Part shown: piece after piece, positions 3,001-62,177 of the stretch
Numbering within the stretch: position 1 is the stretch's first letter
How the letters are laid out: every line of letters starts with the position of its first letter
NCBI GenBank assembly: GCA_030765065.1
Contig: CM060990.1
Span: 11,221,501-11,285,500 of the forward strand
DNA length: 64,000 nucleotides
Direction of reading: 5' to 3'
DNA from: Deroplatys truncata
Lineage: Eukaryota > Arthropoda > Insecta > Mantodea > Mantidae
Position numbers and translations under genes: made by a program
The notes under the pieces: generated by a model
Databases searched by the model: none
Seen by the model: the letters and a program-made list of their open reading frames with translations, nothing else
What the model was told of the DNA's origin: nothing

Positions 3001-3009
3001 TGGTGTCTA

Positions 3010-28402: not shown

Positions 28403-28454
28403 TAGACCCAAAATTTAGCACTAGCATGAGCTGGTAGTGGTTTTAAGCTAAAGA

Positions 28455-28989
28455 AAACCCTTATGTGATACATTCACATGGCCTTCTCTTCCCTCTGTCG
28501 TTTCTTAGTGTGTGTACAAACTATTTATACTAGAGCTTATTTTCCTATCTATTACATGTTTATCCAATTAAACCTTTGCAAAAATAGCTACATTACACAT
28601 TTCGTTAAAGATGCAAACAGAACAGGATAATCATATGTTTAAGAACTGGTCGGTATTTGCTGGTCTTAAAATTCCATACGGTTTCCATGCAATCGCGAGA
28701 AACAATTGAATGTTTACAGGGCTGTAAAAGAATAACCAAGTAATGAACAATCCCCACATTTAAAAACGGATATCTCAGAAATGGCTTATGCTACAGGAAA
28801 CGTATTTGAAATAATCTGTGTGTTTTAAGGAATCTAAATTTTTTGTATAGTACGTCTTTATTTATCGCTTAAGATTTACCAGTTATATAAGATTAAACAA
28901 AGTTCCCTCGGAACGAAGAGGATTTCACAAGCTATTCCCAGAAAGTTCAATATATACATGTTATTTGTGATGTGAATATGTTTAATATG
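28455..28989 (+). repeat. Dispersed repeat family R, copy 3, left half
   Basis: It carries TTTAAGAACTGGTCGGTAT, CATGCAATCGCGAGAAAC, ATCGCTTAAG and CGAAGAGGATTTCACA, in the same order as R copies 1 and 2. It stops at AATATG (28,984-28,989) where the giant element begins. The matching right half starts at 55,236. Confidence 0.85.
28984..28989 (+). other. Target-site duplication AATATG (left)
   Basis: AATATG directly precedes the element end AGTAGAATAAGAATGCC and is repeated at 55,236-55,241 directly after the other end. In the uninterrupted R copies the equivalent site occurs once. Confidence 0.85.
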
Positions 28990-29039
28990 AGTAGAATAAG
29001 AATGCCAATACGGAAACAAAGGATTTGCCGCCATCTGAT

Positions 29040-29290
29040 AAGGTTCTTTGATCTATGCCGCTAGCCCCGCCCCCTCCCTTTGTGTTCTCACATGCCGGCC
29101 TGGTCGCGTGGCGCTAGCCCCGCCCCCTTCCCTTTGTGTGCTGATCTAATGCCGACAGTGTCTGTGCCGGCAGGTCCTCCCCCCTCCCCCCTGTGGTCTG
29201 GTCACGTGCCGGTGTCCCCGCCCCCCTCCCTCCCCCATACGCGTGTCCTCCCTCCCTTTTGTGTTCTGGTTGGTTCCCTGTGGATAGGTG
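29040..29290. repeat. Subterminal GC-rich repeats (left)
   Basis: Three diverged units of about 60-80 bp each have CCCCGCCCCC (near 29,064, 29,119 and 29,216), CCCTTTTGTGT-like runs and TGCCGGC. CCCCGCCCC matches the GC box bound by Sp1/KLF-type factors. Their place just inside the terminus suggests a promoter or a protein-binding block for mobilisation. Confidence 0.6.
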
Positions 29291-29559
29291 GGAGAGTGTG
29301 TATTGTTCCTATACGGTGACTACATTCCCGCCCCTCATTGTGACTTGTCTAAATCCCTGCCGTGTGATTGGCTTGGGGTAGGGGATGTGCCGCTCGGGTG
29401 ATGGGGTATAAGGGAATGGGGTTCTCGGTGCGTGACGTTGGCGATGTGGGAATGCGATTCTCGATGCCTGCCGCACATCGGCAAATCGTTTGAGTACATA
29501 ATTGTGTCAATCAATTAGGTAATGTGTGTTATTGAAAAAAGAATGCACATCATATTACT

Positions 29560-31690
29560 ACTAATGCAATTAAACGCTATTCTTCGAGCAATTAAGTATT
29601 TTTGATTGAATCGCGCACACCTGTCCCTAAACCGTTATTTATAACCTACTATTGTCAATAAATTACACGTCTAATGAAACAAGGCTAGTCTGTCGATGAA
29701 AACAATTAACTATTTTTGAATGATTAATTGACTCGCGCGCAACTGTTTGTTATCGTATATGTGTGGTAGCATGTGTATAATTATTACGAGTAATAACATT
29801 TATTTAATTCTACTTTTGAGGGAAAATATATTTTGGATTTAGAAGAATATTACAACACTTAGATGAAAGGACAGACTTGACGTAACACTCGTTATCGCGT
29901 GATAATTGCGGTGGAACACCGACCGCAACCTTCCGCTGCGAGACGTTTCACTGGAATGACTGGCTCATGGTGCTTTCAAGGGACAAGTCGACTAGCGCAC
30001 CCCCTCCACTCACGCTTCAGTTCGCTACCTACACTAGCGCGCCAAGTGGTAATATGAGTGAAACTCCAGCGAGTGTTCCCACACAGCGCCCCTGGTGGTC
30101 ATACCCGAAAGTTGTGAATTCACCATATTTAAACTCATTATAGGCGCAAGACGGCCATCTTAAGTCTATATAATTCTGCGAAATATGATTCCGGAAAAAA
30201 AATAAAGGGGAATTAACATGCAAGGGGCGTTCATGTTGGCTCCGGAGGAATTGATTATGAAATAAATAAAAAATAAATAAGACTCTCGCTGATCGATGAA
30301 TACAATTAAATATTTTTATTAATTAATGTAATTGACTCGCGCTCCTAGAGATATCTCACCCAATTATTCATCTACCATGAATATCTCACTTCTAATGAAA
30401 CGACGCAGTCTATCGATTAAAAACAATTAAGTTTTTTTGATTGATTAATGTAATTGACTCGAGCGCAACTGTTCGTTATCGTATATGCGCGATTATTACG
30501 CGTATATAACTATTACGGCTAATAACGTGTGTTTAATTCTTCTTTTGACTGGAGGGTTTATAAAAAATATTACATTGCTTAGATGAATTAAAAAGCAACT
30601 TAAAGCGAAATTGCAAATAGCTTGTATGAGACGTTAACACGAGAACCCTTTACGAAAAAACAAGACGCAATGCGACAGCTGTACCTCGTCTAAATAGAAG
30701 CGGTTAAACCAGGACGCTTGGGTTTTCCCTCAGTACCTGCTCTTAATGGCTAGGGGTATCCAGCACATCGAGTACGCTTCAACTGACGTTAAAAATAAAA
30801 GCCCTCTATGTCTCTTCTCACACGAGAGAAGTAATAATTACAATTCAAAACAGGCGTACCTGTAAGTAACACGCACGAAGACTTCAAATATAAATTTTAT
30901 ATTCGTTTTAAATGTTCTTTCTAAAGACGTAGCGAACTTTGAGAAATTCAACGAATTATTCACTTGCGTACACTGCTTGAAAGAAATATGGTGTACACCC
31001 CTGAAGAATACGTGTGTAGACACATTAGCAGGCGACAGTCCCTTCCGCATCATTAATTTTCTTCAGACGAAGTTAAAACCAAGGTCTTGTATAGAGCTCT
31101 TAGTGAACAATGAAGGGTGTTTCCAGTTCATTAAGCAGGCTAAGTGCTCTGTAAAACCACAGACCCTCGGAGTAAATAACTATTAGCGACACAAAAGATT
31201 TTCTTAATAGCTTCCCCTGTGCAGAAATTCCATCATAGACAGGGGAAAACCAAGTCTAGACATGTTTTAAGCTTACCACAAAAAATGTTTTCCCGATAAT
31301 TAATATAATTCTACATGAAGAATATTAATGATTAAGTTTTCAATTAAACGTATACTGTATAGATTCTGTACTTAAACATTCGATTGTATCTTTGTCATTA
31401 TTTAAATACTCGCGTACAAGAAATGCAAACATGATATCAAAAAATTAAACTGATTCTTTTTCGGAATGTTAAACAAAGAAATATGATTTGGCGAGAGTAA
31501 TATGAAGAATAAAAAGTATTCAGAATGATAGATATTACATACGTTATTAAAATAAATAAGGCTCTCGCTGATCGATGAAAACAATTAAATATTTTTTTAT
31601 TAATTAATTGTATATGAATTGACTTGCGCATCTGATTGGTAACGCATGTGCATGATTATTACGACTAATAGCATTTGTTTAATTCTAAAT
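29560..31690. repeat. Dispersed ~60-bp repeats in the left arm
   Basis: Five copies of a block reading roughly TCGATGAAAACAATTAA, then ATTTTTGATTGATTAA, then TTGACTCGCGCGCAACTG lie near 29,583, 29,693, 30,292, 30,413 and 31,571. Several are followed by GATTATTACGACTAATA and TTTAATTCT. Flanking non-repeat DNA differs between copies. The same five are present in mirror image in the right arm. Confidence 0.7.
30866..31186 (+). CDS. Possible exon of an unknown Cys-rich protein (left arm)
   Basis: The plus frame is open from 30,866 to a stop at 31,184 and contains FTCVHC, then WCTPLKNTC and IELLVNNEGCFQFI. A TTCTTTCTAAAG just before ACGTAG (30,927) could be a splice acceptor, and a GTAAGT donor lies upstream at 30,862. 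The same frame stays open in the right arm with only a few residue changes. I do not recognise a family, and a non-coding origin remains possible. Confidence 0.25.
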   Translation, partial: VTRTKTSNINFIFVLNVLSKDVANFEKFNELFTCVHCLKEIWCTPLKNTCVDTLAGDSPFRIINFLQTKLKPRSCIELLVNNEGCFQFIKQAKCSVKPQTLGVNNY

Positions 31691-31971
31691 AAATAATGAA
31701 ATATGGAGCCTAGCCTAAACAATCCTCGTTACTCTTAATTTATTCCATTTTTAAAAAGATTGGGCTTAGTAAACATAGGACGAGTACGATTTTAAATACC
31801 CCGTCCATTCGAGAGATATTTTTTCGAATATTCCAACATGTTAATATAAACTTAATACACACACACACACAAATTCATTTCAAGTAATCTAACGATATTG
31901 AATAAAATATTAAATGTTTAAGATATTGTAATGAGAAATGAATTGTATATCTCGAATTTTCTGGGCCGCAG

Positions 31972-32884
31972 GCTGCAGGATCGCTCATCAAATACCGTAA
32001 TGATTCAGACACCCGAACACCCGAATGGTAAGCATTCTTCAGAGTTTTTAAATAAGTAATGTAACAATTCATATTAACTTCTTTTACACATTCTATATTA
32101 TTATTTCCAGTAAGTGGACTTTATTTTGGTATCGACCATACATCGACCGCTGCACAGGCACCGCCAGGCTTCCAAACCTTCCTGGTACCAAATCATTATG
32201 GAGGCGGCTCTGCCCCGTACATACAGCAACAATCGTACGGTAAGAATTTACAGACCGGTGTTCGAGCAATTGTAACTAAAAATTACATAATAGTAGACAT
32301 ACAGTGTCGATTCTGGCACACAAAGGCATGCCTCCGACAGCATAGAGTTCTGGATTGCATAAGGAGAAAAGGATATATTTAAGGGGAGTTTCTCACCCAT
32401 ATGCAGTCACATAACTCTATCGATCGCCCAGAATGCTATGTATTTTTAACGCAGGTGTTTAAAACATGTATTTTTTTTTCACGTATAGAGTGTAGATTCT
32501 TTAGAACTCTATACTTAAACATGCTATACTATTATTATTATTTATTTTTTCCAGGAAATGGACTTTATTTCGGAGGCGGTATCGGTCAACATGCGAGCGC
32601 TGCACCGGTACCATCAGGCTTCGCGACCGTTGCACCAGTAGGCTTCGCGACCGCTGCACCGCGACCCCCAGGCTTCCAGACCTACCTGGTACCAAATCAG
32701 CAGGGATGGGGACCCTGTCCCATACATGCAGCAAGCACCGAACGGTAAGAATTTTTTCAATATTTTACGAAATTCTTTTACACATTCTATATTATTATTA
32801 ATATTGTTATTATTTTCAGGAAGTGGACTTTATTTCGGAGGCGGGTTTTTCTGGGAATGTCTCCAAAAGTATTCTTCATTCTGA
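31972..32884 (+). CDS. Gene of repeated phase-1 exons with GLYFG motif (left arm)
   Basis: Four exon-like blocks with GT-AG borders lie in a row: 31,972-32,027 (IQTPEHPN), 32,111-32,239, 32,555-32,744 and 32,820-32,884. The last three each begin with G[SN]GLYFG. The middle two continue into a Pro/Ala-rich part ending APPGFQTFLVPN or RPPGFQTYLVPN and then a Gln-rich end. All junctions fall in codon phase 1 after a shared Gly codon, so exons can be duplicated without upsetting the frame. The product would be a small Gly/Pro/Tyr-rich protein of unknown function. The true start codon may be ATG at 31,999-32,001 or further upstream. The last exon runs straight into a family R copy and ends there. 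Some exon copies look decayed in one arm or the other. Confidence 0.5.
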
Positions 32885-33420
32885 ACGACTTTTGCAAAAT
32901 TGATAAACCATAAGAGATAGACAAAATTTTACTACACAAAAAATGGAGATTGCGTTAAAATACATAATTTATATCATATACATTCTTGTTGTTGAGTAAA
33001 TCGTTTTTCGAGATATTGCTTGTTATTCCCTTTAAAATTTTCCAATACTTATACTTTTTCTCAAATTCATTATTCTTGTTTTATGTCCTCGATATGCAAA
33101 GAGAATGGAATGCACCACATAGCAACCAGCGTTAAAATATTTGACTATCGCTTAAAACCTACCATATTCACCTTGTATCGATATGAAAATTACCAATAAC
33201 ATTGACATCTCGATATCTCGATTAACATGAAGCATATAGGGAATAAGTGCTTGTAAAAATAGTTTGTACAAGAGTAGAGAAAGTCATGTGAGTGTAATAC
33301 ATCAGATTTTTTTAATTGGTTTAAATTTTCAAATACTTTTAACTTTTCTCAAGCGGTAACTCGCTATTCGTTTTTCCCGTGGTAATGCATAGAGAATAGA
33401 ATTATAAAGCCATCACATAG
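32860..33420 (-). repeat. Family R copies inside the left arm
   Basis: On the minus strand TCACATGACTTTCTCTAC, then TTAATCGAGATAT, then ATATCTCGAAAA and CAGAATGAAGAA follow the order of family R. A second partial unit lies at 33,330-33,420. The same copies sit at the mirror place in the right arm, so R entered before the arms were duplicated. Confidence 0.6.
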
Positions 33421-33814
33421 CATCAGACGTTCTTTAAACATCTGTAACGTATCTATTCACAATCGAAAGGTCGCTGGTTCGAGGACAATTATATCTACAG
33501 AAACAATACATTATTTTCACTCTGTGATTAATTTGGTAATGTAACAATAATTAAAAATGAATTTTTAGCGGTAAATGTAAAAAATAAAATATATTTTTTA
33601 TTTCCTAGCGTCATACGCAGAAGCATTCCCCTTAAGGAACGCTGGCGTGATCGAAGGATTTCCCCCATAACAGGTTTAGACGTGCTTACGAAATGCCCCT
33701 GTGCGAGGCTAGCATTTCCCTCTCCTTCTCGAATTTTTGGAGTAGCCAATCAAAATCGTTGTATTATATATCTTAAACTTTCACTCATACATTTTTTATA
33801 TCGCAAAAGAACAC

Positions 33815-33824
33815 TATAAAAAGG
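33815..33824 (+). promoter_or_regulatory. TATA box of the 124-aa gene (left arm)
   Basis: TATAAAAAGG lies about 105 bp before the start codon at 33,922. TTCTCACAGTTT about 25 bp downstream fits an initiator. The whole block is conserved in the right arm. Confidence 0.7.
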
Positions 33825-33921
33825 CTGCTTCGTCGGGAATTCTCACAGTTTCTCCGCTGAAATCAACGAGTTAAGGTCTCTGCAAACTTTTCTCATTCAA
33901 AGTGAAATTTCAACGAACATC

Positions 33922-34917
33922 ATGTCTGGTAAGTTGTAACACAACACATCATTTACTTTAAAAGTTAAATTATTACTCTGTACATTTAACTTATATTCGC
34001 GTTCTTGTTTTTAATGCATGGCATTTATATGCGAATAGCTGAGTATTCTAAAAGTTAATAGCTAGACAAGCGAATTTTCTGAAATGTGAACAGTTTAGTT
34101 AAGTATTCATTTTAGGCAAGCTTATTCTACATTTAATAGCTAACTGCGCGAATTCTCAAAATGGGAACAATTTAGTTAAGTATTCACCTTGTTGAGTAAT
34201 TATTATTCCAGATATTTAAATACAGGATTTCACAGAGTGAATTATATTCCTTTTTGGAGAAAATACAATTATTTGAATACCTTATTAACGCTTTTGCTTT
34301 AGAATATTACAAAAAGTCTGTTGCGCGAATCATTCGCTCTAACAAAGTAAATATCTACATTATATTAAAACATTTAAATTGAAAAATACAGTACTTAATT
34401 AACTTCATTAGTGAATCAGAACCTCAATTATATTTACACATATTATCATTTTCAGAAAAAAGTTAATAAGTTTGTAACTTTCAAATAATGAAATTTTGTT
34501 ATGCAACACATTCTCTAATAAAGAATGTTTTTTTCTCTTCCTAATGCAGAAAGTTTGGCATCTCAACTTAACACATTGGCTGAGGGTAGCATTTACCCAG
34601 CCGTTCAAAGACTCCAAGATCTTCAGCCAGAGGAGCCTTATAATATAAAATCCTTAAGAAAAATTGATACTCGATACGGTGCTAGAGTCGTTGCACTTTT
34701 AGAGAATAAGCAAGTGTTTCTCCCGACAAGATATTCAACCCTAACAAGCCAACAGTTGGAGGAAATGCCTGGGAAGTTTCAAATGGTATATCATGGAGTA
34801 GTACCAGCCGGCAAGTTTAAGACATGTAAATTGTCTTTTCTTCCTATTAAGGTTTGTAGAAATAATTCAGCTATCCTTTCAAAGCTTCATTTAGAGTTAC
34901 ATTCGTTGAGTTTATAA
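33922..34917 (+). CDS. 124-aa two-exon protein of unknown function (left arm)
   Basis: Exon 1 is the start ATG-TCT-G at 33,922-33,928, followed by a perfect GTAAGT donor. Exon 2 runs 34,550-34,917 after TTTCTCTTCCTAATGCAG. Together they give 124 residues beginning MSESLASQLNTLAEG. The middle has IDTRYGARVVALLE and VFLPTRYSTLTSQQLEEM, a pattern I recall from short unnamed arthropod proteins near mobile elements, but I cannot name a function. The only base change noticed against the right-arm copy is synonymous, and the protein is unchanged, which suggests selection or recent copying. A TATA box precedes it. It converges on the zinc-finger-like gene. Confidence 0.7.
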
Positions 34918-35380
34918 ATTCGCACTTCAGTAGGATAACATTTGTCTAAAGTATACATCAATATGTAAAAAAATAACGTCCAGGATGTAGTCTGAGCGAG
35001 GATCTGCAGAAAGAAGTTTAATAGTCTATTCACTGATTCTTTACCTCAAAGCAGATACCTACAGCAAGTTTCAAATAATTTCCAGCAGGATAGCAGTTGT
35101 CAAAAGCATGCATCACTGTATTAAAAAAATATGTGTAAATAATGTCTAGATTGTACTCTTTGTGATTTCGTGCAGAAAGAACTTTAATACCCCTTGCAGT
35201 GATTCTCCACATCGAAGTATATACCTACAAGAAGTTGCAAATAATGTGAATGTGTGTTACAGGAATGCCCAGCTGAATGTAAATGAAGAGGAAAAACGAG
35301 ATAGCTTAAAACATCATAAACAGAAATGTGATAGGAACATTCTCAACACCTCCCAGTAACCTCAATTAATGAAGAATTGC
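34918..35380. repeat. Two diverged ~150-bp units downstream of the 124-aa gene
   Basis: GTCCAGGATGTAGTCTGAG..TGCAGAAAGAAGTTTAATAG and TACCTACAGCAAGTTTCAAAT (to 35,075) recur as GTCTAGATTGTACTCTTTG..TGCAGAAAGAACTTTAATAC and TACCTACAAGAAGTTGCAAAT (to 35,245). The second unit continues into an open frame ending LKHHKQKCDRNILNTSQ at 35,359 that is not kept open in the right arm, so I do not call it a gene. Confidence 0.5.
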
Positions 35381-35702
35381 ACCAGCGGGGAACATACATG
35401 GAAAAAACATCCGCGTGTGTAGAATATAACAATAATATATATAAATTATGTACTCATTATTACTGCTATACCAGCCTATACCATTGATTTCATAAATAAT
35501 TTCATAATTGTTTAAGGAGAATGCCTATCTTAAAAACATTGATGCTACATGAAATCTAAACAATAAGATTATTGAACTATTACTGAAAGAGACTTGAATA
35601 AATGGGAATCTAGAAGCCAGAACCATCTTAATATTGGGCTGTATGATATGAGCTGTATAAAAAGATTAATAAAAAAATGAGGTCTATGTAATATAAACAA
35701 CA

Positions 35703-35708
35703 TTTATT
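35703..35708 (-). terminator. Polyadenylation signal of the zinc-finger-like gene (left arm)
   Basis: AATAAA on the minus strand, about 255 bp after the stop codon, is followed by a GT-rich TGTTGTTTATATT. A plus-strand AATAAA lies about 30 bp away (near 35,668), so the two genes may end face to face. Confidence 0.5.
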
Positions 35709-35963
35709 TTTATAAACATCTTCCTATTACATTCCTATACAAAAAACATACATATTTCCTAAAGACAAAGGTGATAGTCTAGACATTCTAAAACACTCAG
35801 TTATATAATCATATACATCACACAGAAAGAGACCTGCATTATCCATAAAAAACTAAACATCTCAAGAATATCTGGATGATGTATTTTATAAGTACAAGGT
35901 TTTGATATTTCAAAGTTCCTGTTAACCATGACTGTAATTGATTAACACAATTTCTCGATCATG

Positions 35964-36431
35964 TCATGCTATAACTTTAGAAGCTTTCAGCTTACTTATA
36001 ATCTCCTCAATCTCTTGTGTGTGACTATTATTACCGGCATTCCTCGATGCAATTAGTAACCTCAATATATTTACTAGTCTATTTGGATTTTCAAGCGTAG
36101 ATATCACTGAATCATCATCATATGAAGATTTCATATTCTCGCGACTCCCGCTGTATCCAGATTTTTCACCATCAGTAGTCTCCAGTGAAGGACAGAGGCT
36201 TGATTCGGTATAACATCCCCCTCTATACATCTTCGGATCTTCGAGTGTAGGAGAGAGAGTCGATCCAGTATAACATGTTGCTCTATGAAGCTTAAATCTT
36301 GACAAAGAACGATTCTTAAAAATCCGCTCGCATATACAGCATCTAATGACGTGTTTTCCTCCATGTGTAATGTATGAAAAATTGAGTTTCTCATCCGCTA
36401 GTTGCACAGATTTTCTCCGGCAAGAGCTCAT
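35964..36431 (-). CDS. 155-aa zinc-finger-like protein (left arm)
   Basis: The intact frame begins MSSCRRKSVQLADEKLNF. Residues about 30-53 read CCICERIFKNRSLSRFKLHR and then ATC, giving C-x2-C-x14-H-x3-C, a C2H2/C2HC-like finger with a slightly long loop. Two short imperfect repeats follow (CYTGSTLSPTLEDPK, CYTESSLCPSLETTD), then an acidic Ser-rich part and a helical C-terminus (EIEEIISKLKASKV). A TATA-like GGATATATACATAGC lies about 90-100 bp upstream, beside the 72-bp repeats. It may bind DNA, perhaps the element's own repeats, but that is inference. The right-arm copy differs at three residues and is also open. Confidence 0.65.
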   Translation of the reverse strand: MSSCRRKSVQLADEKLNFSYITHGGKHVIRCCICERIFKNRSLSRFKLHRATCYTGSTLSPTLEDPKMYRGGCYTESSLCPSLETTDGEKSGYSGSRENMKSSYDDDSVISTLENPNRLVNILRLLIASRNAGNNSHTQEIEEIISKLKASKVIA

Positions 36432-36575
36432 GCTAAAACTAAAAGAAATTAAATGAATAAGGGAATGCTAACGCTCGAAGGAATTAAAAGCGAATGAATG
36501 AATTCATAACACGCAGCTATGTATATATCCAGTGTGAGGACGCCGGAGGGAATCGCAATCTTCGCATAGCAGCGT

Positions 36576-36750
36576 GAAAGGATGCTCTCTGGAAACATTT
36601 GTGGAGAAGGAGGCTCTCAACAGAACATGGCGAATGCGAGCATGGAAAAAGGATGCTCTCTGGGAACATTCGTGGAAAAAGCATGCTCTCAACAGAACAT
36701 AACGAGTGCGAGCATGGAAAAAGGATGCTCTCTGGAAACTTTTGTGGATA
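36576..36750. repeat. 72-bp repeats at the arm-array border (left)
   Basis: GGATGCTCTCTGGRAAC recurs at 36,580, 36,651 and 36,723, each time followed by TGTGGA, then GCTCTCAACAGAACAT and GCGAGCATGGAAAAA. They lie between the zinc-finger gene promoter and the array and are mirrored at 47,460-47,640. Confidence 0.85.
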
Positions 36751-36783
36751 AAGCTGCGTAACAACCTGATTGCGCTATGCAAC

Positions 36784-36797
36784 AAACTGATCAGTTT
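36784..36797. repeat. Mirror axis of the giant palindrome
   Basis: AAACTGATCAGTTT is self-complementary, centred between 36,790 and 36,791. To its left is one 21-bp unit in reverse orientation (GATTGCGCTATGCAACAAA), which joins the left arm. To its right the forward array begins. Confidence 0.85.
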
Positions 36798-45700: not shown

Positions 45701-47442
45701 TGTTACATAGACTGATCAGTTTGTTACATAGCGTGATTTCTTTGTTACATGGCGTGATTCCTTTGTTACATAGCGTGATTCCTTTGTTACATAGCGTGAT
45801 TCCTTTGTTACATAGCGTGATTCCTTTGTTACATAGCGTGATTCCTTTGTTACATAGCGTGATTCCTTTGTTACATAGCGCGATTCCTTTGTTACATAGC
45901 GTGATTCCTTTGTTACATACCGTGATTCCTTTGTTACATAGCGCGATTCCTTTGTTACATAGAGTGATTCCTTTGTTACATGGCGTGATTCCTTTGTTAC
46001 ATACCGTGATTCCTTTGTTACATAGAGTGATTCCTTTGTTACATGGCGTGATTCCTTTGTTACATGCTATGAATTCTTTGTTACATAGCGCGATTCCTTT
46101 GTTACATAGTGTGATTCCTTTGTTACATACCGTCATTCCTTTGTTACATAGCGCGATTCCTTTGTTACATATCGCGATTCCTTTGTTACATACCGTGATT
46201 CCTTTGTTACATTGCGCGATTCCTTTGTTACATAGCGCGATTCCTTTGTTACATACCGTGATTCCTTTGTTACATACCGTGATTCCTTTGTTACATAGCG
46301 CGATTCCTTTGTTACATACCGTGATTCCTTTGTTACATACCGTGATTCCTTTGTTACATAGCACGATTCCTTTGTTACATACCGTGATTCCTTTGTTACA
46401 TAACGCGATTTCTTTGTTACATAGCGTGATTCCTTTGTTACATAGCGTGATTCCTTTGTTAGACAGACTGATCAGTTTGTTACATAGCGTGATTTCTTTG
46501 TTACATGGCGTGATTCCTTTGTTACATAGCGTGATTCCTTTGTTACATAGCGTGATTCCTTTGTTACATAGCGTGATTCCTTTGTTACATACCGTGATTC
46601 CTTTGTTACATAGAGTGATTCCTTTGTTACATAGCGTGATTCCTTTGTTACATAGCGTGATCAGTGTGTTACATAGCGTGTTGAGCTTGTTACATAGCGC
46701 GATTCCTTTGTTACATAGCCTGATCAGTTTGTTACATAGCGCGATTCCTTTGTCACATAGCGTGATACCTTTGTTACATACCGTGATTCCTTTGTTACAT
46801 AGCGCGATTCCTTTGTTACATAGCGTGATTCCTTTGTTACATAGCGTGATTCCTTTGTTACATACCGTGATTCCTTTGTTACATAGCGCGATTCCTTTGT
46901 TACATACCGTGATTCCTTTGTTACATAGCGCGATTCCTTTGTTACATACCGTGATTCCTTTGTTACATAGCGCGATTCCTTATTTATATAGCGTGATTCC
47001 TTTGCTACATCCCGTGATTCCTTTGTTACATAGCGCGATTCCTTTGTTACATAGCGTGATTCCTTTGTTACATTGCGTGATTCCTTTGTTACATAGCGTG
47101 ATTCCTTTGTTACATAACGTGATTCCTTTGTTACATAGCGTGATTTCTTTGTTACATAGCCTGATCAGTTTGTTACATAGCCTGATCAGTTTGTTGCATA
47201 GCGTGATTCCTTTGTTACATGGCGTGATTCCTTCGTTACATAGCGTGATTCCTTTGTTACATAGCGTGATCAGTTTGTTACATAGCGTGACGAGGTTGTT
47301 ACATAGCGCGATTCCTTTGTTACATAGCCTGATCAGTTTGTTACATAGCGTGATTCCTTTGTTACATAACGTGATTCCTTTGTTACATAGCGTGATTCCT
47401 TTGTTACATAACGTGATTCCTTTGTTACATAGCGCAATCAGG
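36791..47442 (+). repeat. 21-bp tandem array, about 505 copies
   Basis: The unit is ATTCCTTTGTTACAT followed by AGCGTG. Variation is concentrated in the last six bases (AGCGCG, ACCGTG, GGCGTG, AGACTG) and in an ATCAGT replacement for ATTCCT. The register never slips over 10.6 kb. Because 21 is seven codons and the unit has no stop in the relevant frames, very long open frames appear on both strands (IPLLHSV repeats on plus, NKGITLC repeats on minus). A marker set reading LHRLISLLHSVISLLHGV in the plus frame recurs about a dozen times or more, and a 294-bp block is repeated three times at 41,824, 42,118 and 42,412, so higher-order duplication has occurred. Confidence 0.97.
41824..42705 (+). 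repeat. Higher-order 294-bp block, three copies
   Basis: The unusual run GGCGCG, ACCGCG, AGCGCG, GGCGTG, then TTACGTAGCGTG begins at 41,824, 42,118 and 42,412, exactly 14 units apart. The first two copies also share rare variants such as TTTTGGTACATAG. Confidence 0.85.
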
Positions 47443-47459
47443 TTGTTACGCAGCCTTAT

Positions 47460-47640
47460 CCACAAAAGTTTCCAGAGAGCATCCTTTTTCCATGCTCGCA
47501 CTCGTTATGTTCTGTTGAGAGCATCCTTTTTCCACGAATGTTCCCAGAGAGCATCCTTTTTCCATGCTCGCATTCGCCATGTTCTGTTGAGAGCCTCCTT
47601 CTCCACAAATGTTTCCAGAGAGCATTCTTTCCCGCTGCTA
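47460..47640. repeat. 72-bp repeats at the arm-array border (right)
   Basis: Mirror of 36,576-36,750: units with CCAGAGAGCATCC, spaced about 70 bp. The long plus-strand repeat frame runs through them, which gives its odd C-terminal end. Confidence 0.85.
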
Positions 47641-47775
47641 TGCGAAGATTGCGATTCCCTCCGGCGTCCTCACACTGGATATATACATAGCTGCGTGTTA
47701 TGAATTCATTCATTCGCTTTTAATTCCTTCGAGCGTTAGCATTCCCGTATTCATTTAATTTCTTTTAGTTTTAGC

Positions 47776-48243
47776 ATGAGCTCTTGCCGGAGAAAATCTG
47801 TGCAACTAGCGGATGAGAAACTCAATTTTTTATACATTACACATGGAGGAAAACACGTCATTAGATGCTGTATATGCGAGCGGATTTTTAAGAATCGTTC
47901 TTTGTCAAGATTTAAGCTTCATAGAGCAACATGTTATACTGGATCGACTCTCTCTCCTACACTCGAAGATCCGAAGATGTATAGAGGGGGATGTTATACC
48001 GGATCAAGCCTCTGTCCTTCACTGGAGACTACTGATGGTGATAAATCTGGATACAGCGGGAGTCGCGAGAATATGAAATCTTCATATGATGATGATTCAG
48101 TGATATCTACGCTTGAAAATCCAAATAGACTAGTAAATATATTGAGGTTACTAATTGCATCGAGGAATGCCGGTAATAATAGTCACACACAAGAGATTGA
48201 GGAGATTATAAGTAAGCTGAAAGCTTCTAAAGTTATAGCATGA
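47776..48243 (+). CDS. 155-aa zinc-finger-like protein (right arm)
   Basis: This is an intact copy of the gene at 35,964-36,431, with three residue changes (Ser to Leu near residue 19, Glu to Gly in the second repeat, Glu to Asp near residue 90). The C-x2-C-x14-H-x3-C cluster, the acidic middle and the helical C-terminus are all kept. Two open copies in diverging arms suggest the protein has been useful to the element. A TATA-like ATATATAC lies about 95 bp upstream near 47,680, next to the 72-bp repeats. Confidence 0.65.
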   Translation: MSSCRRKSVQLADEKLNFLYITHGGKHVIRCCICERIFKNRSLSRFKLHRATCYTGSTLSPTLEDPKMYRGGCYTGSSLCPSLETTDGDKSGYSGSRENMKSSYDDDSVISTLENPNRLVNILRLLIASRNAGNNSHTQEIEEIISKLKASKVIA

Positions 48244-48500
48244 CAGGATCGAGAAATTGTGTTAATCAATTACAGTCATGGTTAACAGGAACTTTGAAAT
48301 ATCAAAACCTTGTACTTATAAAATACATCATCCAGATATTCTTGAGATGTTTAGTTTTTTATGGATAATGCAGGTCTCTTTCTGTGTGATGTATATGAAT
48401 ATATAACTGAGTGTTTTAAAATGTCTAGACTATCACCTTTGTCTTTAGGAAATATGTATGTTTTTTTGTATAGGAATGTAATAGGAAGATGTTTATAAAA

Positions 48501-48506
48501 AATAAA
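48501..48506 (+). terminator. Polyadenylation signal of the zinc-finger-like gene (right arm)
   Basis: AATAAATGTTGTTT lies about 258 bp after the stop at 48,243 and mirrors the left-arm site. Confidence 0.5.
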
Positions 48507-48839
48507 TGTTGTTTATATTACATAGACCTCATTTTTTTATTAATCTTTTTATACAGCTCATATCATACAGCCCAATATTAAGATGGTTCTGGCTTCTAGA
48601 TTCCCATTTATTCAAGTCTCTTTCAGTAATAGTTCAATAATCTTTTTGTTTAGATTTCATGTAGCATCAATGTTTTTAAGATAGGCATTCTCCTTAAACA
48701 ATTATGAAATTATTTATGAAATCAATGGTATAGGCTGGTATAGCAGTAATAATGAGTACATAATTTATATATATTATTGTTATATTCTACACACGCGGAT
48801 GTTTTTTCCATGTATGTTCCGCGCTGGTGCAATTCTTCA

Positions 48840-49290
48840 TTGATTGAGGTTACTGGGAGGTGTTGAGAATGTTCCTATCACATTTCTGTTTATGATGTTT
48901 TAAGCTATCTCTTTCTTACTCTTCATTTACATTCAGCTGGGCATTCCTGTAACACACATTCACATTATTTGCAACTTCTTGTAGGTATATACTTCGATGT
49001 GGAGAATCACTGCAAGGGGTATTAAAGTTCTTTCTGCACGAAATCACAAAGAGTACAATCTAGACATTATTTACACATATTTTTTTAATACAGTGATGCA
49101 TGCTTTTGACAACTGCTATCCTGCTGGAAATTATTTGAAGCTTGCTGTAGGTATCTGCTTTGAGGTAAAGAATCAGTGAATAGACTATTAAACTTCTTTC
49201 TGCAGATCCTCGCTCAGACTACATCCTGGACGTTATTTTTTTACATATTGATGTATACTTTAGACAAATGTTATCCTACTGAAGTGCGAA
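48840..49290. repeat. Two diverged ~150-bp units (right arm)
   Basis: Mirror of 34,918-35,380. The 60-aa plus frame at 48,997-49,179 is open in both arms on the strand opposite the 124-aa gene, but it resembles nothing known and reads through repeated units. Confidence 0.4.
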
Positions 49291-49291
49291 T

Positions 49292-50289
49292 TTATAAACT
49301 CAACGAATGTAACTCTAAATGAAGCTTTGAAAGGATAGCTGAATTATTTCTACAAACCTTAATAGGAAGAAAAGACAATTTACATGTCTTAAACTTGCCG
49401 GCTGGTACTACTCCATGATATACCATTTGAAACTTCCCAGGCATTTCCTCCAACTGTTGGCTTGTTAGGGTTGAATATCTTGTCGGGAGAAACACTTGCT
49501 TATTCTCTAAAAGTGCAACGACTCTAGCACCGTATCGAGTATCAATTTTTCTTAAGGATTTTATATTATAAGGCTCCTCTGGCTGAAGATCTTGCAGTCT
49601 TTGAACGGCTGGGTAAATGCTACCCTCAGCCAATGTGTTAAGTTGAGATGCCAAACTTTCTGCATTAGGAAGAGAAAAAAACATATTCTTTATTAGAGAA
49701 TGTGTTGCATAACAAAATTTCATTATTTGAAAGTTACAAACTTATTAACTTTTTTCTGAAAATGATAATATGTGTAAATATAATTGAGGTTCTGATTCAC
49801 TAATGAAGTTCATTAAGTACTGTATTTTTCAATTTAAATGTTTTAATATAATGTAGATATTTACTTTGTTAGAGCGAATGATTCGCGCAACAGACTTTTT
49901 GTAATATTCTAAAGCAAAAGCGTTAATAAGGTATTCAAATAATTGTATTTTCTCCAAAAAGGAATATAATTCACTCTGTGAAATCCTGTATTTATATATC
50001 TGGAATAATAATTACTCAACAAGGTGAATACTTAACTAAATTGTTCCCATTTTGAGAATTCGCGCAGTTAGCTATTAAATGTAGAATAAGCTTGCCTAAA
50101 ATGAATACTTAACTAAACTGTTCACATTTCAGAAAATTCGCTTGTCTAGCTATTAACTTTTAGAATACTCAGCTATTCGCATATAAATGCCATGCATTAA
50201 AAACAAGAACGCGAATATAAGTTAAATGTACAGAGTAATAATTTAACTTTTAAAGTAAATGATGTGTTGTGTTACAACTTACCAGACAT
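49292..50289 (-). CDS. 124-aa two-exon protein of unknown function (right arm)
   Basis: Exon 1 is 50,283-50,289 and exon 2 is 49,292-49,659, with the same GT-AG borders as the left copy. The predicted protein is identical to the left-arm one (MSESLASQLN..; IDTRYGARVVALLE; VFLPTRYSTL). A TATA box lies at 50,387-50,396. Identity of the protein, while nearby introns and flanks show scattered changes and length differences, is the best sign of coding function in the element. Confidence 0.7.
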
Positions 50290-50386
50290 GATGTTCGTTG
50301 AAATTTCACTTTGAATGAGAAAAGTTTGCAGAGACCTTAACTCGTTGATTTCAGCGGAGAAACTGTGAGAATTCCCGACGAAGCAG

Positions 50387-50396
50387 CCTTTTTATA
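50387..50396 (-). promoter_or_regulatory. TATA box of the 124-aa gene (right arm)
   Basis: TATAAAAAGG on the minus strand, mirror of 33,815-33,824, with the same initiator-like sequence downstream. Confidence 0.7.
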
Positions 50397-50799
50397 GTGT
50401 TCTTTTGCGATATAAAAATGTATGAGTGAAAGTTTAAGATATATAATACAACGATTTTGATTGGCTACTCCAAAAATTCGAGAAGGAGAGGGAAATGCTA
50501 GCCTCGCACAGGGGCATTTCGTAAGCACGTCTAAACCTGTTATGGGGGAAACCATCGCTCACGCCAGCGTTCCTTAAGGGGAATGCTTCTGCGTATGACG
50601 CTAGGAAATAAAAAATATATTTTATTTTTTACATTTACCGCTAAAAATTCATTGTTAATTATTGTTACATTACCAAATTAATCACAGAGCGAAAATAATG
50701 TATTGTTTCTGTAGATATAATTTTCATCGAACCAGCAACCTTTCGATTGTGAATAGACACGTTACAGATGTTTAAAAAACGTCTGATGCTATGTGATGG

Positions 50800-51360
50800 C
50801 TTTAGAATTCTATTCTCTATGCATTACCTCGGGAAAAACGAATAGCGAGTTACCGCTTGAGAAAAGTTAAAAGTATTTGAAAATTTAAACCAATATCAAA
50901 AAATCTGATGTGATACACTCACATGACTTTCTCTACTCTTGTACAAACTATTTTTACAAGCACTTATTCCCTATATGCTTCATGTTAATCGAGATATCGG
51001 GATGTCAATGTTATTGGTAATTTTCATATCGATACAAGGTGAATATGGTAGGTTTTAAGCGATAGTCAAATATTTTAACGCTGGTTGCTATGTGGTGCAT
51101 TCCATTCTCTTTGCATATCGAGGACATAAAACAAGAATAATGAATTTGAGAAAAAGTATAAGTATTGGAAAATTTTAAAGGGAATAACAAGCAATATCTC
51201 GAAAACGATTTACTCAACAACAAAAATGTATATGTTATAAATTATGTATTTTAACGCGATCTCCATTTTTTTGTGTAGTAAAATTTTGTCTATCTCTTAT
51301 GGTTTATCAATTTTTGCAAAAGTCGTTCAGAATGAAGAATACTTTTGGAGACATTCCCAG
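50800..51360 (+). repeat. Family R copies inside the right arm
   Basis: TCACATGACTTTCTCTAC, CATGTTAATCGAGATAT, ATATCTCGAAAACG and CAGAATGAAGAATAC occur in family order, with a second partial unit at 50,770-50,900. It ends against the last GLYFG exon near 51,365. Confidence 0.6.
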
Positions 51361-52252
51361 AAAAACCCGCCTCCGAAATAAAGTCCACTTCCTGAAAATA
51401 ATAACAATATTAATAATAATATAGAATGTGTAAAAGAACTTCGTAAAATATTGAAAAAATTCTTACCGTTCGGTGCTTGCTGCATGTATGGGGCAGGGCC
51501 CCCATCCCTATTGATTTGGTGCCAGGTAGGTCTGGAAGCCTGGGGGGTCGCGGTGCAGCGGTCGCGAAGCCTACTGGTGCAACGGTCGCGAAGCCTGATG
51601 GTACCGGTGCAGCGCTCGCATGTTGACCGATACCGCCTCCGAAATAAAGTCCATTTCCGGGAAAAAATAAATAATAATAATAGTATAGCATGTTTAAGTA
51701 TAGAGTTCTAAAGAATCTACACTCTATACGTGAAAAAAAATACATGTTTTAAACACCTACGTTAAAAATACATTGCATTCTGGGAGATCGATAGAGTTAT
51801 GTGACTGCATATGGGTGAGAAACTCCCCTTAAATATATCCTTTTCTCCTTATACAATCCAGAACTCTATGCTGTCGGAGGTAGGCCTTGTGTGCTAGAAT
51901 CGCCAATGTATGTCTACTATCACGTAATTTTTAGTTACAACTGCTCAAACAACCGTCTGTAAATTCTTACCGTACGATTGTTGCTGTATGTACGGGGCAG
52001 AGCCGCCTCCATGATGATTTGGTACCAGGAAGGTTTGGAAGCCTGGCGGTGCCTGTGCAGCGGTCGATGTATGGTCGATACCAAAATAAAGTCCACTTCC
52101 TGGAAATAATAATACAAATAATAATAATAATAATATGAACAAGAAGTTAATATGAATTGTTACATTACTTATTTAAAAACTCTGAAGAATGCTTACCATT
52201 CGGGTGTTCGGGTGTCTGAATCATTACGGTATTTGATGAGCGATCCTGCAGC
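51330..52252 (-). CDS. Gene of repeated phase-1 exons with GLYFG motif (right arm)
   Basis: This is the mirror of 31,972-32,884. The exon blocks are 52,197-52,252, 51,971-52,099, 51,467-51,657 and one ending at 51,391. The phase-1 joins, the G[SN]GLYFG starts and the PPGFQTFLVPN-type segment are recognisable. As in the left arm not every exon or border looks intact, so expression of the full product from either arm is uncertain. Confidence 0.45.
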
Positions 52253-52559
52253 CTGCGGCCCAGAAAATTCGAGATATACAATTCATTTCTCATTACAATA
52301 TCTTAAACATTTAATATTTTATTCAATATCGTTAGATTACTTGAAATGAATTTTTTGTGTGTGTGTATTAAGTTTATATTAACATGCTGGAATATTCGAA
52401 AAATATCTCTCGAATGGATGGGGTATTTAAAATCGTACTCGTCCTATGTTTACTAAGCCCAATCTTTTTAAAAATGGAATAAATTAAGAGTAACGAGGAT
52501 TGTTTAGGCAAGGCTCCATATTTCATTATTTAGAATTAAACAAATGCTATTAGTCGTAA

Positions 52560-54660
52560 TAATCATACACATACGACAGCAAGCAAATGCGCGAGTCAAT
52601 TCATATACAATTAATTAATAAAAAAATATTTAATTGTTTTCATCGATTAGCGAGAGCCTTATTTATTTTAATAACGTATGTAATATCTATCATTCTGAAT
52701 ACTTTTTATTCTTCATATTACTCTCGCCAAATCATATTTCTTTGTTTAACATTCCGAAAAAAAATCAGTTTAATTTTTTGATATCATGTTTGCATTTCTT
52801 GTACGCGAGTATTTAAATAATGACAAAGATACAATCGAATGTTTAAGTACAGAATCTATACAGTATACGTTTAATTGAAAACTTAATAATTAATATTCTT
52901 CATGTAGAATTATATTAATTATCGGGAAAACATTTTTTGTGGTAAGCTTAAAACATGTCTATACTTGGTTTCCCCCTGTCTATGATGGAATTTCTGCACA
53001 GGGGAAGCTATTAAGAAAATCTTTTGTGTCGCTAATAGTTATTTACCCCGAGGGTCTGTGGTTTTTCAGAGCACTTAGCCTGCTTAATGAACTGGAAACA
53101 CCCTTCATTGTTCACTAAGAGCTCTATACAAGACCTTGGTTTTAACTTCGTCTGAAGAAAATTAATGATGCGGAAGGGACTGTCGCCTGCTAATGTGTCT
53201 ACACACGCATTCTTCAGGGGTGTACACCATATTTCTTTCAAGCAGTGTACGCAAGTGAATAATTCGTTGAATTTCTCAAAGTTCGCTACGTCTTTAGAAA
53301 CAACATTTAAAACGAATATAAAATTTATATTTGAAGTCTTCTTGCGTGTTACTTACAGGTACGCCTGTTTTGAATTGTAATTATTACTTTTCTCGTGTGA
53401 GAAGAGACATAGAGGGCTTTTATTTTTAACATCAGGTGAAGCATACTCCCATGTGCTGGATACCCCTAGCCATTAAGAGCAGGTACTGAGGGAAAACCCA
53501 AGCGTCCTGGTTTAACCGCTTCTCATGATGGACGGGGCATTGCTGTCACATTGCGTCTTGTTTTTTCGTAAAGGGTTCTCGTGTTAACGTCTCATACAAG
53601 CTATTTGCAATTTCGCTTTAAGTTGCTTTTTAATTCATCTAAGCAATGTAATATTTTTTATAAACCCTCCAGTCAAAAGAAGAATTAAACACACGTTATT
53701 AGCCGTAATAGTTATATACGCGTAATAATCGCGCATATACGATAACGAACAGTTGCGCTCGAGTCAATTACATTAATCAATCAAAAAAAACTTAATTGTT
53801 TTTAATCGATAGACTGCGTCGTTTCATTAGAAGTGAGATATTCATGGTAGATGAATAATTGGGTGAGATATCTCTAGGAGCGCGAGTCAATTACATTAAT
53901 TAATAAAAATATTTAATTGTATTCATCGATCAGCGAGAGTCTTATTTATTTTTTATTTATTTCATAATCAATTCCTCCAAGGCCAACATGAACGCCCCTT
54001 GCATGTTAATTCCCCTTTATTTTTTTTCCGGAATCATATTTCGCAGAATTATATAGACTTAAGATGGCCGTCTTGCGCCCATAATGAGTTTAAATATGGT
54101 GAATTCACAACTTTCGGGTATGACCACCAGGGGCGCTGTGTGGGAACACTCGCTGGAGTTTCACTCATATTACCACTTGGCGCGCTAGTGTAGGTAGCGA
54201 ACTGAAGCGTGAGTGGAGGGGGTGCGCTAGTCGACTTGTCCCTTGAAAGCACCATGAGCCAGTCATTCCAGTGAAACGTCTCGCAGCGGAAGGTTGCGGT
54301 CGGTGTTCCACCGCAATTATCACGCGATAACGAGTGTTACGTCAAGTCTGTCCTTTCATCTAAGTGTTGTAATATTCTTATAAATCCAAAATATATTTTC
54401 CCTCAAAAGTAGAATAAAATAAATGTTATTACTCGTAATAATTATACACATGCTACCACACATATACGATAACGAACAGTTGCGCGCGAGTCAATTAATC
54501 ATTCAAAAATACTTAATTGTTTTCATCGACAGACTAGCCTTGTTTCATTAGACGTGTAATTTATTGACAATAGTAGGTTATAAATAACGGTTTAGGGACA
54601 GGTGTGCGCGATTCAATCAAAAATACTTAATTGCTCGAAGAATAGCGTTTAATTGCATTA
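52560..54660. repeat. Dispersed ~60-bp repeats in the right arm
   Basis: Mirror copies lie near 52,590, 53,760, 53,885, 54,485 and 54,600, with the CAGTTGCGCGCGAGTCAA core and AATACTTAATTGTTTTCATC on this strand. Confidence 0.7.
53032..53352 (-). CDS. Possible exon of an unknown Cys-rich protein (right arm)
   Basis: Mirror of 30,866-31,186. The frame with FTCVHC and WCTPLKNAC stays open. Residue changes against the left copy include Thr to Ala and Val to Glu. The opposite strand is open too (53,165-53,380), so the strand of any real coding is unsure. Confidence 0.25.
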   Translation of the reverse strand, partial: VTRKKTSNINFIFVLNVVSKDVANFEKFNELFTCVHCLKEIWCTPLKNACVDTLAGDSPFRIINFLQTKLKPRSCIELLVNNEGCFQFIKQAKCSEKPQTLGVNNY

Positions 54661-54949
54661 GTAGTAATATGATGTGCATTCTTATTTTTTTTCAATAACA
54701 CACATTACCTAATTGATTGACACAATTATGTACTCAAACGATTTGCCGATGTGCGGCAGGCATCGAGAATCGCATTCCCACACCGCCAACGTCACGCACC
54801 GAGAAACCTCACATATAACCCCTCACCCCGAGCGGCACATCCCCTACCCCAAGCCAATCACACGGCAGGGATTTAGACAAGTCACAATGAGGGGCGGGAA
54901 TGTAGTCACCGTATAGGAACAATACACACACTCCCATCTATCCACAGGG

Positions 54950-55190
54950 AACCAACCAGAACACAAAGGGGAGGGAGGACACGCGTATGGGGGAGGGAGG
55001 TGGGCGGGGACACCGGCACGTGACCAGACCACAGGGGGGAGGGGGGAGGACCTGCCGGCACAGACACTGTCGGCATTAGATCAGCACACAAAGGGAAGGG
55101 GGCGGGGCTAGCGCCACGCGACCAGGCCGGCGTGTGAGAACACAAAGGGAGGGGGCGGTGCTAGCGGCATAGATCAAAGAACCTTATCAG
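54950..55190. repeat. Subterminal GC-rich repeats (right)
   Basis: Mirror of 29,040-29,290 with GGGGGCGGGG boxes near 55,010, 55,100 and 55,152. Confidence 0.6.
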
Positions 55191-55235
55191 ATGGCGGCAA
55201 ATCCTTTGTTTCCGTATCGGCATTCTTATCCTACT

Positions 55236-55241
55236 AATATG
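55236..55241 (+). other. Target-site duplication AATATG (right)
   Basis: It directly follows the element end ..CATTCTTATCCTACT and repeats 28,984-28,989. Confidence 0.85.
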
Positions 55242-55565
55242 TATATGCTACTTTAATCAAAATCTTAGAGCCATTTTCAGAGGATCAAAAATTTCGAAAA
55301 AGTGTTGCATGTAAAGGGTATTTTGGGGTGGAGATATTCTTGGAAATCTTCGTGTCGCATCTTTGTAAGGTAGTGAACCTAAATACCAAGTTTTTGAGTT
55401 ATGCTGTTCACAGACACACACACACACACACACACAGACAGACACACTCACAGGTCTTTTTAAAAAAAATCTTGGATTCAGTGGCCTCAAAATATGCATT
55501 TCCGTAGAAATCTCGAAATCGAACTTTTGGGTGGAATGCAACCCCTTCTCTACCTACTAGAGATG
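55236..55565 (+). repeat. Dispersed repeat family R, copy 3, right half
   Basis: It continues the R order where 28,989 stops: TTTAATCAAAATCTTAGAGCC, AAAAATTTCGAAAAAG, an (AC)n tract, then CTCAAAATATGCATTTCC and CCTTCTCTACCTACTAG. The equivalent unbroken junctions are at about 11,898 and 18,130. Confidence 0.85.
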
Positions 55566-61135: not shown

Positions 61136-61301
61136 GTCGTATCAGGACGTTCCAAGTACACGCAGGTATAAACAAGTAGCGGCCATGGGGGTGGAGTTGA
61201 TGGTTTACCGAGCAAGGATCGGAATGCGGACGGGTAGGGGATCGTGGATAGCAGGTAGTCGGGTATTAGGTAGGACGAACGTAACGTCCAAGTGTTATTT
61301 T

Positions 61302-62177
61302 ATGGCGTTTATTTTAGTAATTTTGCTCGTGATAGGAGGTGTTGAATTAAACCCAGGACCTGTGACTGATGAAGGATGAGGGAGCTGCAACAAAGCTTTA
61401 AGGACAGGACTACAATGCAGCAGCTGCGCGAAGTGGTACCATTTTGGTTGCCAAAAAATTAAGAGGGACCAGAACATCGAAGAAAACTGGGAATGTAAGG
61501 ACTGCAGGGGAACTGAAACTGTCATCGCAAATCAGAAGAAACTGGAGAAGCTGCAAGAAGAAGCACGGGTGTTACGCGAGAAGCTCCAACGCGCGGAAGA
61601 GAAAATTCGGAAGTTAGAAGAAGAGAATAGCCAACTCAGGGAGCTCAGGAAAGAAAATGGACAAGAAAAGGGGAAACCATGTTTGATAGTCGGAGACTCT
61701 ATTGTGAGAAATGCGGGGAACCCGAATGCAGAGGTAGCTTGCTATCCTGGCATAAGGACTGAAGGACTGCTGGGGGAAATCGAGAAAAAGCAAGAGGAGA
61801 TGGAAGACAGCTATAAGACGATTGTATTGCACGTTGGGAGCAATGTCCTGCGGAGAAGTGTAAACTACGTGATGGGAGACATGTACGACTTAGTTAAACG
61901 GACAAGGCAGCTATTTCCCTCAGCGAAGATCGTCGTTAGTGGAGTTTTGAGACGACGCGATGTCAACTGGAGGAAGATAATGCAGGTAAACGACTCGTAT
62001 GCATGGGTAGCGGAGCGACTGGGCGCGAAGTTTCTGGACCCAAATTCGTGGATTGAAGACTGGGACTACGGACGGGACGGTGTGCACTTAAACCGAAGTG
62101 GATCTTCGAAGTTGGCAGCTTTGTTCGGGAGGGTGACGACGTGGAGCGATGGCAGCAAGCGGCAGAAGCAACAGTGA
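61302..62177 (+). CDS. LINE ORF1: 2A-like leader, PHD finger, coiled coil, SGNH esterase
   Basis: I choose ATG 61,302 because it opens a hydrophobic leader leading to GGVELNPGP, a 2A-like ribosome-skipping motif with Gly in place of the usual Asp. TGA at 61,377 then interrupts the same frame. Directly after it comes a PHD-type Cys/His finger (CSSCAKWYHFGC, then WECKDC), a coiled coil (KLQRAEEKIRKLEEENSQL) and an SGNH hydrolase domain with GDSI at 61,692-61,703, HVGSN and DGVHL near 62,080, the expected Ser, Asn and Asp/His blocks. PHD plus esterase ORF1 proteins are known in the CR1/L2 group, where they bind element RNA and possibly lipids. If the TGA is a mutation, one base separates this copy from an intact ORF1. 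Confidence 0.85.

Follow-up and report, generated by a model that had tools for sequence, protein, structure and literature searches.

Palindromic derivatives of Polintons in the genome of the mantis Deroplatys truncata may record how these transposons replicate

The genome of Deroplatys truncata (4.29 Gb in 818 contigs) contains a palindromic element of 26,246 bp (28,990-55,235) within the window analysed here, a stretch of 64,000 nucleotides on contig CM060990.1 (C16:11,221,501-11,285,500). Judged by its sequence, this element appears to be a non-autonomous derivative of Polinton/Maverick transposons in which one end of the parent is present twice, as in a copy-back defective genome. We conclude this because its arms match the left end of a linear Polinton and because other palindromes in the same genome double the right end. 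It is probable (about 0.77) that the element is a copy-back derivative formed during replication by the family-B DNA polymerase (PolB) and mobilised by the enzymes of intact Polintons. A single target duplication per palindrome, common termini, an outer arm derived from a Polinton, palindromes from both ends and arms that are nearly identical despite mosaicism were all observed. The original prediction, made from the letters of the window, had stated that the element matched no known class in full and had left kinship with Polintons as an inference. This kinship can now be read from the AGTAG terminus, the 6-bp duplication and the arm blocks of about 90-95% identity that the element has in common with a linear Polinton, and the element is a rearranged derivative of that known class.

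The two arms of the window element (28,985-36,786 and 55,240-47,421) align in inverted orientation with 97.84% identity over 7.8 kb, and the termini read AGTAG[A/G]ATAAGAATGCC. Between the arms lies an array of 10.6 kb, in which the 487 matched units of 21 bp all run the same way; tandem repeats within the arms are short, the largest having a 72-bp unit in 2.5 copies according to the repeat finder (Table 1). The arms had been said to carry genes. This stands insofar as two open reading frames (ORFs) per arm, A and Z, are open here and in most copies read, but purifying selection on them could not be demonstrated. No database relative of ORF A was found; its frame is open in the 14 copies found, and it was not found in the arms of copy C14_149. 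The frame of ORF Z is broken in copy C2_184. PolB, rve integrase, packaging ATPase, protease and capsid genes are all lacking among the ORFs of the window element that were searched, and for these ORFs the earlier statement that no recognisable transposition enzyme is present is upheld.

The palindrome behaves as one mobile unit, as the original prediction had proposed. It is bracketed on both sides by AATATG and sits inside a single copy of the dispersed repeat R. With the element and one AATATG taken out, the flanks give a sequence that aligns across the insertion site to the R copies at 11.5-12.3 kb (70.8% over 758 positions) and 17.8-18.4 kb (69.5% over 732). We also checked whether other copies continue past the element ends; they stop at the same kind of terminus, and they have different flanks and 6-bp duplications of their own. 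Identical 6-bp duplications, re-read by script, were found on both sides of 15/15 elements read at both ends, namely nine left-end palindromes like that of the window, five right-end palindromes and one linear Polinton. The duplications are AATATG (window), TGACCT (C16_670), CATAAG (C5_202), GGGGGG (C14_149), ACCTTC (C9_8), CTTACA (C8_21), ACGCTA (C16_110), AGTATG (linear C16_251), CATGCT (C10_54), CACATT (C4_160), CATTTC (C3_56), CGTGTC (C9_40), AATGAA (C4_95), CACGAC (C2_275) and GGTGTC (C16_687). In all 14 palindromes, one such duplication brackets the whole palindrome, which does not fit a chromosomal inverted duplication. For C3_56 and C4_160 the ends and the centre were read; C4_95, C2_275 and C16_687 were read at their ends, and their status as palindromes rests on inverted pairs of capsid genes and matched ends. 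Two further copies, C2_184 and C16_444, were read at one end. A 6-bp target-site duplication is a trait of Polintons, as are AG ends. The insertion site of the C10 palindrome lies, by eye, within a tRNA-like sequence (L029 490-561, L030 from 8247), which may be a gene or a short interspersed nuclear element.

Copies of the arm are numerous. A 39-bp arm marker has 623 exact matches genome-wide and 2,043 with up to 3 mismatches, and the reversed marker, used as a control, has 0 genome-wide. Pairing was analysed for the first 100 of the 623 exact matches, on contigs C1 to C3. Of these, 86 form 43 inward-facing pairs at a spacing of 1.2-28.7 kb (median 4.0), and there are 0 pairs of any other orientation; a neighbouring marker within 30 kb is expected by chance in 0.4% of cases. 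If the remainder behaves alike, the 623 exact matches would correspond to about 270 palindromes, and the 2,043 to more. With the terminal 416 bp, the best 40 of 2,635 candidates were scored, and by eye 32 of them form 16 inverted pairs 16-32 kb apart, leaving 8 single. Paired termini alone do not prove a palindrome: one of the 16 pairs is the linear Polinton described below, and a second (C7:194.7 Mb) holds one scored capsid match.

The linear Polinton, the one linear copy that we read, is at C16:251,640,834-251,661,070 (20,237 bp; pieces L016-L018). It has the AGTAG terminus and a 6-bp duplication, and its terminal inverted repeat (TIR) is 627 bp long and 96.2% identical between L016 and L018. 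It encodes PolB in L016 (PF03175, 1.7e-22) and, in L017, an rve integrase (2.9e-9), a Pox_A32-type ATPase (1.5e-7) and a double-jelly-roll capsid (3e-110); the copy also has a phospholipase-like (PLA2-like) domain (8.9e-13), and an ORF in L017 is protease-like by eye, with a weak Pfam match (Josephin, 0.047). From these features we consider it a Polinton/Maverick. Its left 5-6 kb matches the window arm at about 90-95% in blocks (2-2173, 2104-2981, 2983-3858 and 3863-5297 of the arm), the last two in swapped order. The last 42 residues of ORF Z are 83% identical to the C-terminus of the Polinton gene L017 2781-3602. Over the outer 1.5 kb, copies C5 and C9 differ from the linear Polinton by 0-0.8%. 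The arm of C14_149 follows the order of the Polinton left half with deletions between its parts, which are the N- and C-terminal parts of PolB, the zone of a 67-bp repeat and the end of the gene beyond the integrase. In the linear Polinton, a 67-bp tandem repeat (L017 1193-1773) lies between PolB and integrase, near the place that corresponds to the array of the palindromes. Intact-looking Polinton genes appear to be abundant and recent in this genome, because the 100 scored matches to the capsid protein have open frames throughout and are given as 99-100% identical, and because a 36-bp capsid marker has 159 exact copies genome-wide.

Palindromes that double the other end of the Polinton were found through these capsid genes. 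Among the 100 scored matches, we recognised by eye four inverted pairs within 25 kb (C9, C4, C10 and C16), and C2_275 was added from 100 listed places of the 159 exact marker matches. All five pairs face outward, which is the expectation if the right end was doubled, and the remaining capsid matches are not paired in this way. C10 has arms of 5,507 bp that are 99.84% identical and a loop of about 5.4 kb; its strand runs from the right end through the capsid, ATPase and integrase region to L017:161, where it is joined in inverted orientation to L017:6113. C9_40 (C9:40746983-40768281; pieces L084 and L085) measures 21,299 bp from end to end around a loop of 18 nt, its inner arms are 99.90% identical over the 6,701 bp compared, and it carries integrase sequence by DNA match. 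AAAA and TTTT close the loop. At this place the sequence is ...GATAAATTTTGAAATG in the linear copy but ...GATAAATTTTACAATATC in the element, which looks like the outcome of TTTT folding onto AAAA and being extended. Both C10 and C9_40 contain sequence that the other could not yield by deletion. The palindromes therefore require a minimum of one left-end and two right-end events, and a reversed array in C1_125 looks like a fourth. Palindromes such as C9_40 are generally regarded as very unstable; judging by the assembly, one of 21 kb with a loop of 18 nt can stand in a chromosome.

The points at which the strand turns round were compared in 19 further elements with both inner ends fetched and in a twentieth with one centre, in addition to the elements above; joints were classed and complementarities counted by eye. 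In the window, the joint lies at the self-complementary CTGATCAG (36,787-36,794), with a complementarity of 8 nt. The commonest left-end joint, GGAAACGTTTG|TTACATAGCG, has 5 nt (ACAAA) common to both sides, and a second type reads GCTATGTA|CCTGACCAGTTTG. C1_125 is the element in which the array itself reverses, with 74 units on the plus strand followed by 58 on the minus strand; its joint, CCTTTGTTACAAAGG, has a complementarity of 3 nt. The complementarity is 4 nt in C9_40, 1 nt in C16_670, which has no array and a loop of about 30 nt, and 0 nt in C10. C4_160 and C2_61 have joints of their own, and the centres of C1_162 (L047) and C2_26 (L088) run into sequence absent from the other palindromes (GGAAACACTCGTCAT...); in L045, L049-L050 and L039-L040 the joint could not be classified from the stretch fetched. 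The overall range of 0-8 nt is consistent with a strand switch.

Within an element, the two arms are nearly identical. Besides the window, arm-arm identity is 99.86% in C16_670, 99.49% in C5_202, 99.75% in C9_8, 99.78% in C8_21, 98.95% in C14_149 and 99.91-99.95% in C16_110; over the outer 2 kb it is 97.6% in C3_56 and 98.7% in C4_160. In a tree of the outer 2.1 kb, the two arms are sisters in 9/9 left-end palindromes, with support of 0.78 for the window (the weakest) and 0.93-1.00 for the others where printed. Structural variants are present in both arms as well, for example the duplications of 371 bp and 157 bp in C16_110. The elements are nevertheless mosaic. In the outer 1.5 kb, in which C5 and C9 are so close to the linear Polinton, C8 and C16_670 lie 0.4-8.5% away from it, whereas the four copies differ among themselves by 0-1.6% beyond 2.5 kb. 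Comparison of C16_670 with C5 over the first six 500-bp windows gives differences of 0.6, 7.9, 6.0, 1.6, 2.0 and 0.0%, whereas the arms within each of these two elements differ by 0-0.4% in the same windows. Across the four elements, arms of one element differ by 0-0.7% over the outer 1.5 kb, by 0-1.0% anywhere and by 0-0.2% in 50 of 60 windows. Exchanges therefore appear in both arms of an element.

The explanation that we favour is that a linear Polinton is copied from its ends by the PolB that it encodes. Having run in from the left end, a growing or displaced strand would come loose, fold back in or near the minisatellite with little or no complementarity and extend on its own complement, out to the end from which it came. 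The fold-back, or a template switch of the replicating strand, would give a product with the left end twice, facing outward, and the array as loop. Because this product has two good termini, the enzymes of intact Polintons elsewhere in the genome, with which it co-occurs and has its termini in common, could replicate it and insert it in trans with a 6-bp duplication. A strand of a palindrome could also form a hairpin with the two arms as its stem, and repair or copying in this hairpin or panhandle stage may make the arms alike before insertion. Taking the whole a step further, it is slightly more probable than the contrary that Polintons here repeatedly yield copy-back palindromes from either end and that one lineage now perpetuates itself as a selfish element, numbering hundreds of insertions by extrapolation and renewing the identity of its arms in the replication cycle.

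Several observations weigh against copy-back formation followed by mobilisation. In the assembled sequence analysed, neither mobilisation in trans nor a terminal protein nor an extrachromosomal molecule was observed. The inner 2.5 kb or so of the window arm, including ORF A, is without a match in the linear copy except for 128 bp, which is the C-terminus of ORF Z, and a linear parent with the 21-bp array was not found, one linear copy having been read. In the pairing analysis, 14 of the 100 marker matches are single. Several types of left-end joint could be central deletions of one older palindrome, and independent events may therefore be fewer than joints. The arms of the window differ unevenly, by 0.2-4.4% per 500 bp; their 127 substitutions are clustered (variance/mean 4.3 per 500 bp, a value never reached in 2,000 shuffles), and their longest identical run is 561 bp (p 0.011). 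In addition, the arms of nine elements differ at 156 places within the outer 2.1 kb, and for 84 of these places both states occur in other elements. Therefore, arms were not always identical at insertion, or they were partly exchanged later.

One rival explanation is that gene conversion after insertion keeps the arms alike, as in sex-chromosome palindromes, and that the palindrome was made only once. The sister arms in all nine elements and the patchy divergence in the window would suit this explanation, but a single origin is impossible for left-end and right-end palindromes together and cannot account for the mutual underivability of C9_40 and C10, and conversion alone gives no copies with their own target duplications. 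We regard it as unlikely, although its conversion half could act alongside copy-back formation and the odds are not exclusive. Marginally less unlikely is that a linear Polinton molecule breaks and that its broken end, after resection, folds back on a short inverted repeat and is completed by fill-in synthesis, with no switch by a polymerase. The small loops (18 nt and about 30 nt) and the short complementarities at the turn points fit this equally well; the 5.4-kb loop of C10 with its 0-nt complementarity is better suited to a jump to a distant template. We give very little credence to a false palindrome, that is, to a head-to-head pair of Polinton insertions or a mistake in the assembly. Polinton copies are numerous, as the exact capsid-marker matches indicate, but a single 6-bp duplication surrounds each of the 14 palindromes read at both ends, the 371-bp and 157-bp duplications in C16_110 are common to both arms, and an artefact of mirrored reads would mirror the flanks, which differ. 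Equally improbable is a foldback-type or other cut-and-paste transposon that is unrelated to Polintons and has a 6-bp duplication by coincidence. The lack of an enzyme in the ORFs of the window element would agree with this, but the identity of arm and terminus to the linear Polinton (C5 and C9) speaks against it, unless a Polinton captured the arm.

Compared to known systems, the window element resembles Polintons in its terminus, its 6-bp duplication and its outer-arm sequence, with a relative bearing capsid and PolB genes in the same genome. Its ends and body are derived from a Polinton, apart from the inner 2.5 kb of the arm, and no enzyme genes are present in the ORFs searched, as expected of a non-autonomous derivative. 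It differs from Polintons in this lack of PolB, integrase, ATPase and capsid genes, in its doubled end, in arms of 7.8 kb instead of a TIR of about 0.6 kb, in its internal array and in its size of 26 kb, for which PMC4028283 and PMC5718144 give 15-20 kb. A protein-primed PolB is named in PMC5718144 and PMC6431247. Copy-back (snap-back) defective viral genomes are similar in that a loop is enclosed by inverted arms that both represent one genome end, in that complementarity at their joint is short and in that intact parents co-exist with them. Their form, one parental end twice and facing outward around an asymmetric or short loop, is found in the left-end family and in the right-end palindromes C10 and C9_40. 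Unlike these palindromes, which are DNA, inserted in chromosomes and present in high copy, the copy-back genomes found in the literature searched belong to RNA viruses.

The phi29 polymerase, which offers a precedent for the proposed fold-back, is also of family B and is protein-primed in the phage. Chimeras formed during multiple displacement amplification with it have inverted joints with an intervening deletion (406/475 inverted; at least 2 complementary bases in 76.8% of joints), according to PMC1855051, but they are test-tube artefacts that are neither inserted nor inherited. Foldback elements have very long inverted arms, tandem repeats and a stem-loop form as well; however, their tandem repeats build the arms, whereas in the window the array forms the loop, between outer arms that consist of Polinton sequence. 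We rejected this class because of the long array in the loop and the short repeats in the arms. Gene palindromes of sex chromosomes have gene-bearing arms of very high identity, but they are not known to be mobile or to have a bracketing target duplication.

In the literature searched, which did not cover all full texts, we found no description of palindromic Polintons, and as far as is known this would be a Polinton derivative in a form otherwise known from defective viral genomes. To our knowledge, the replication and movement of Polintons have not been observed directly. Turn points that can be read, together with arms that match within an element despite its mosaicism, would naturally preserve how strands fold and how sequence is copied between arms. 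If there is a self-perpetuating lineage as described above, it would be to DNA transposons what defective interfering genomes are to viruses, and protein-primed replication would have left an inherited record in it. The palindromes would also suggest that virus-like transposons have defective parasites of their own. The predictions can be tested in any Polinton-rich genome.

Table 1. Features of the palindromic element and its flanks (window positions)
Feature	Position	Strand	Remark
Repeat R, left half of interrupted copy	28627..28989	+	
Left target-site duplication AATATG	28984..28989	.	
Left arm, Polinton left end with internal deletions and reordering, up to turn-round point	28990..36794	+	
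Match to the linear Polinton's TIR (~620 bp), begins AGTAG	28990..29607	+	arm 6-623 vs L018, 93.9%
ORF A, 130 aa	34525..34917	+	
ORF Z, 155 aa	35964..36431	-	
72-bp tandem repeat at inner end of left arm	36577..36754	+	repeat finder
Turn-round point, self-complementary CTGATCAG, joint of left (short) arm and array	36787..36794	.	position counted from printed sequence
21-bp array, 506.7 copies, single direction, loop of the palindrome	36795..47434	+	repeat finder
Right arm, inverted copy of left arm	47435..55235	-	
ORF Z, second copy	47776..48243	+	
ORF A, second copy	49292..49684	-	listed ORF 49292-49723
Right target-site duplication AATATG	55236..55241	.	
Repeat R, right half of interrupted copy	55242..55559	+	

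Other features of the window lie outside the palindrome. About 4 kb to its right, two ORFs on the minus strand (59410-61299) have 51% and 41% identity to the Polinton PolB over 169 and 166 residues, and on this ground the region appears to be a second, diverged Polinton remnant; Pfam gave no match for these two ORFs. Near one copy of repeat R there is a 130-bp tandem repeat with 6.8 copies at 98% identity (12714-13594). An element whose inverted ends measure about 300 bp is present twice (6752-8636 and 26532-28420); its two copies are 91.3% identical over 1.9 kb and likely represent another family of DNA transposons. An ORF on the plus strand at 61380-62177, with a PHD finger and a GDSL-like domain, probably belongs to a retrotransposon.

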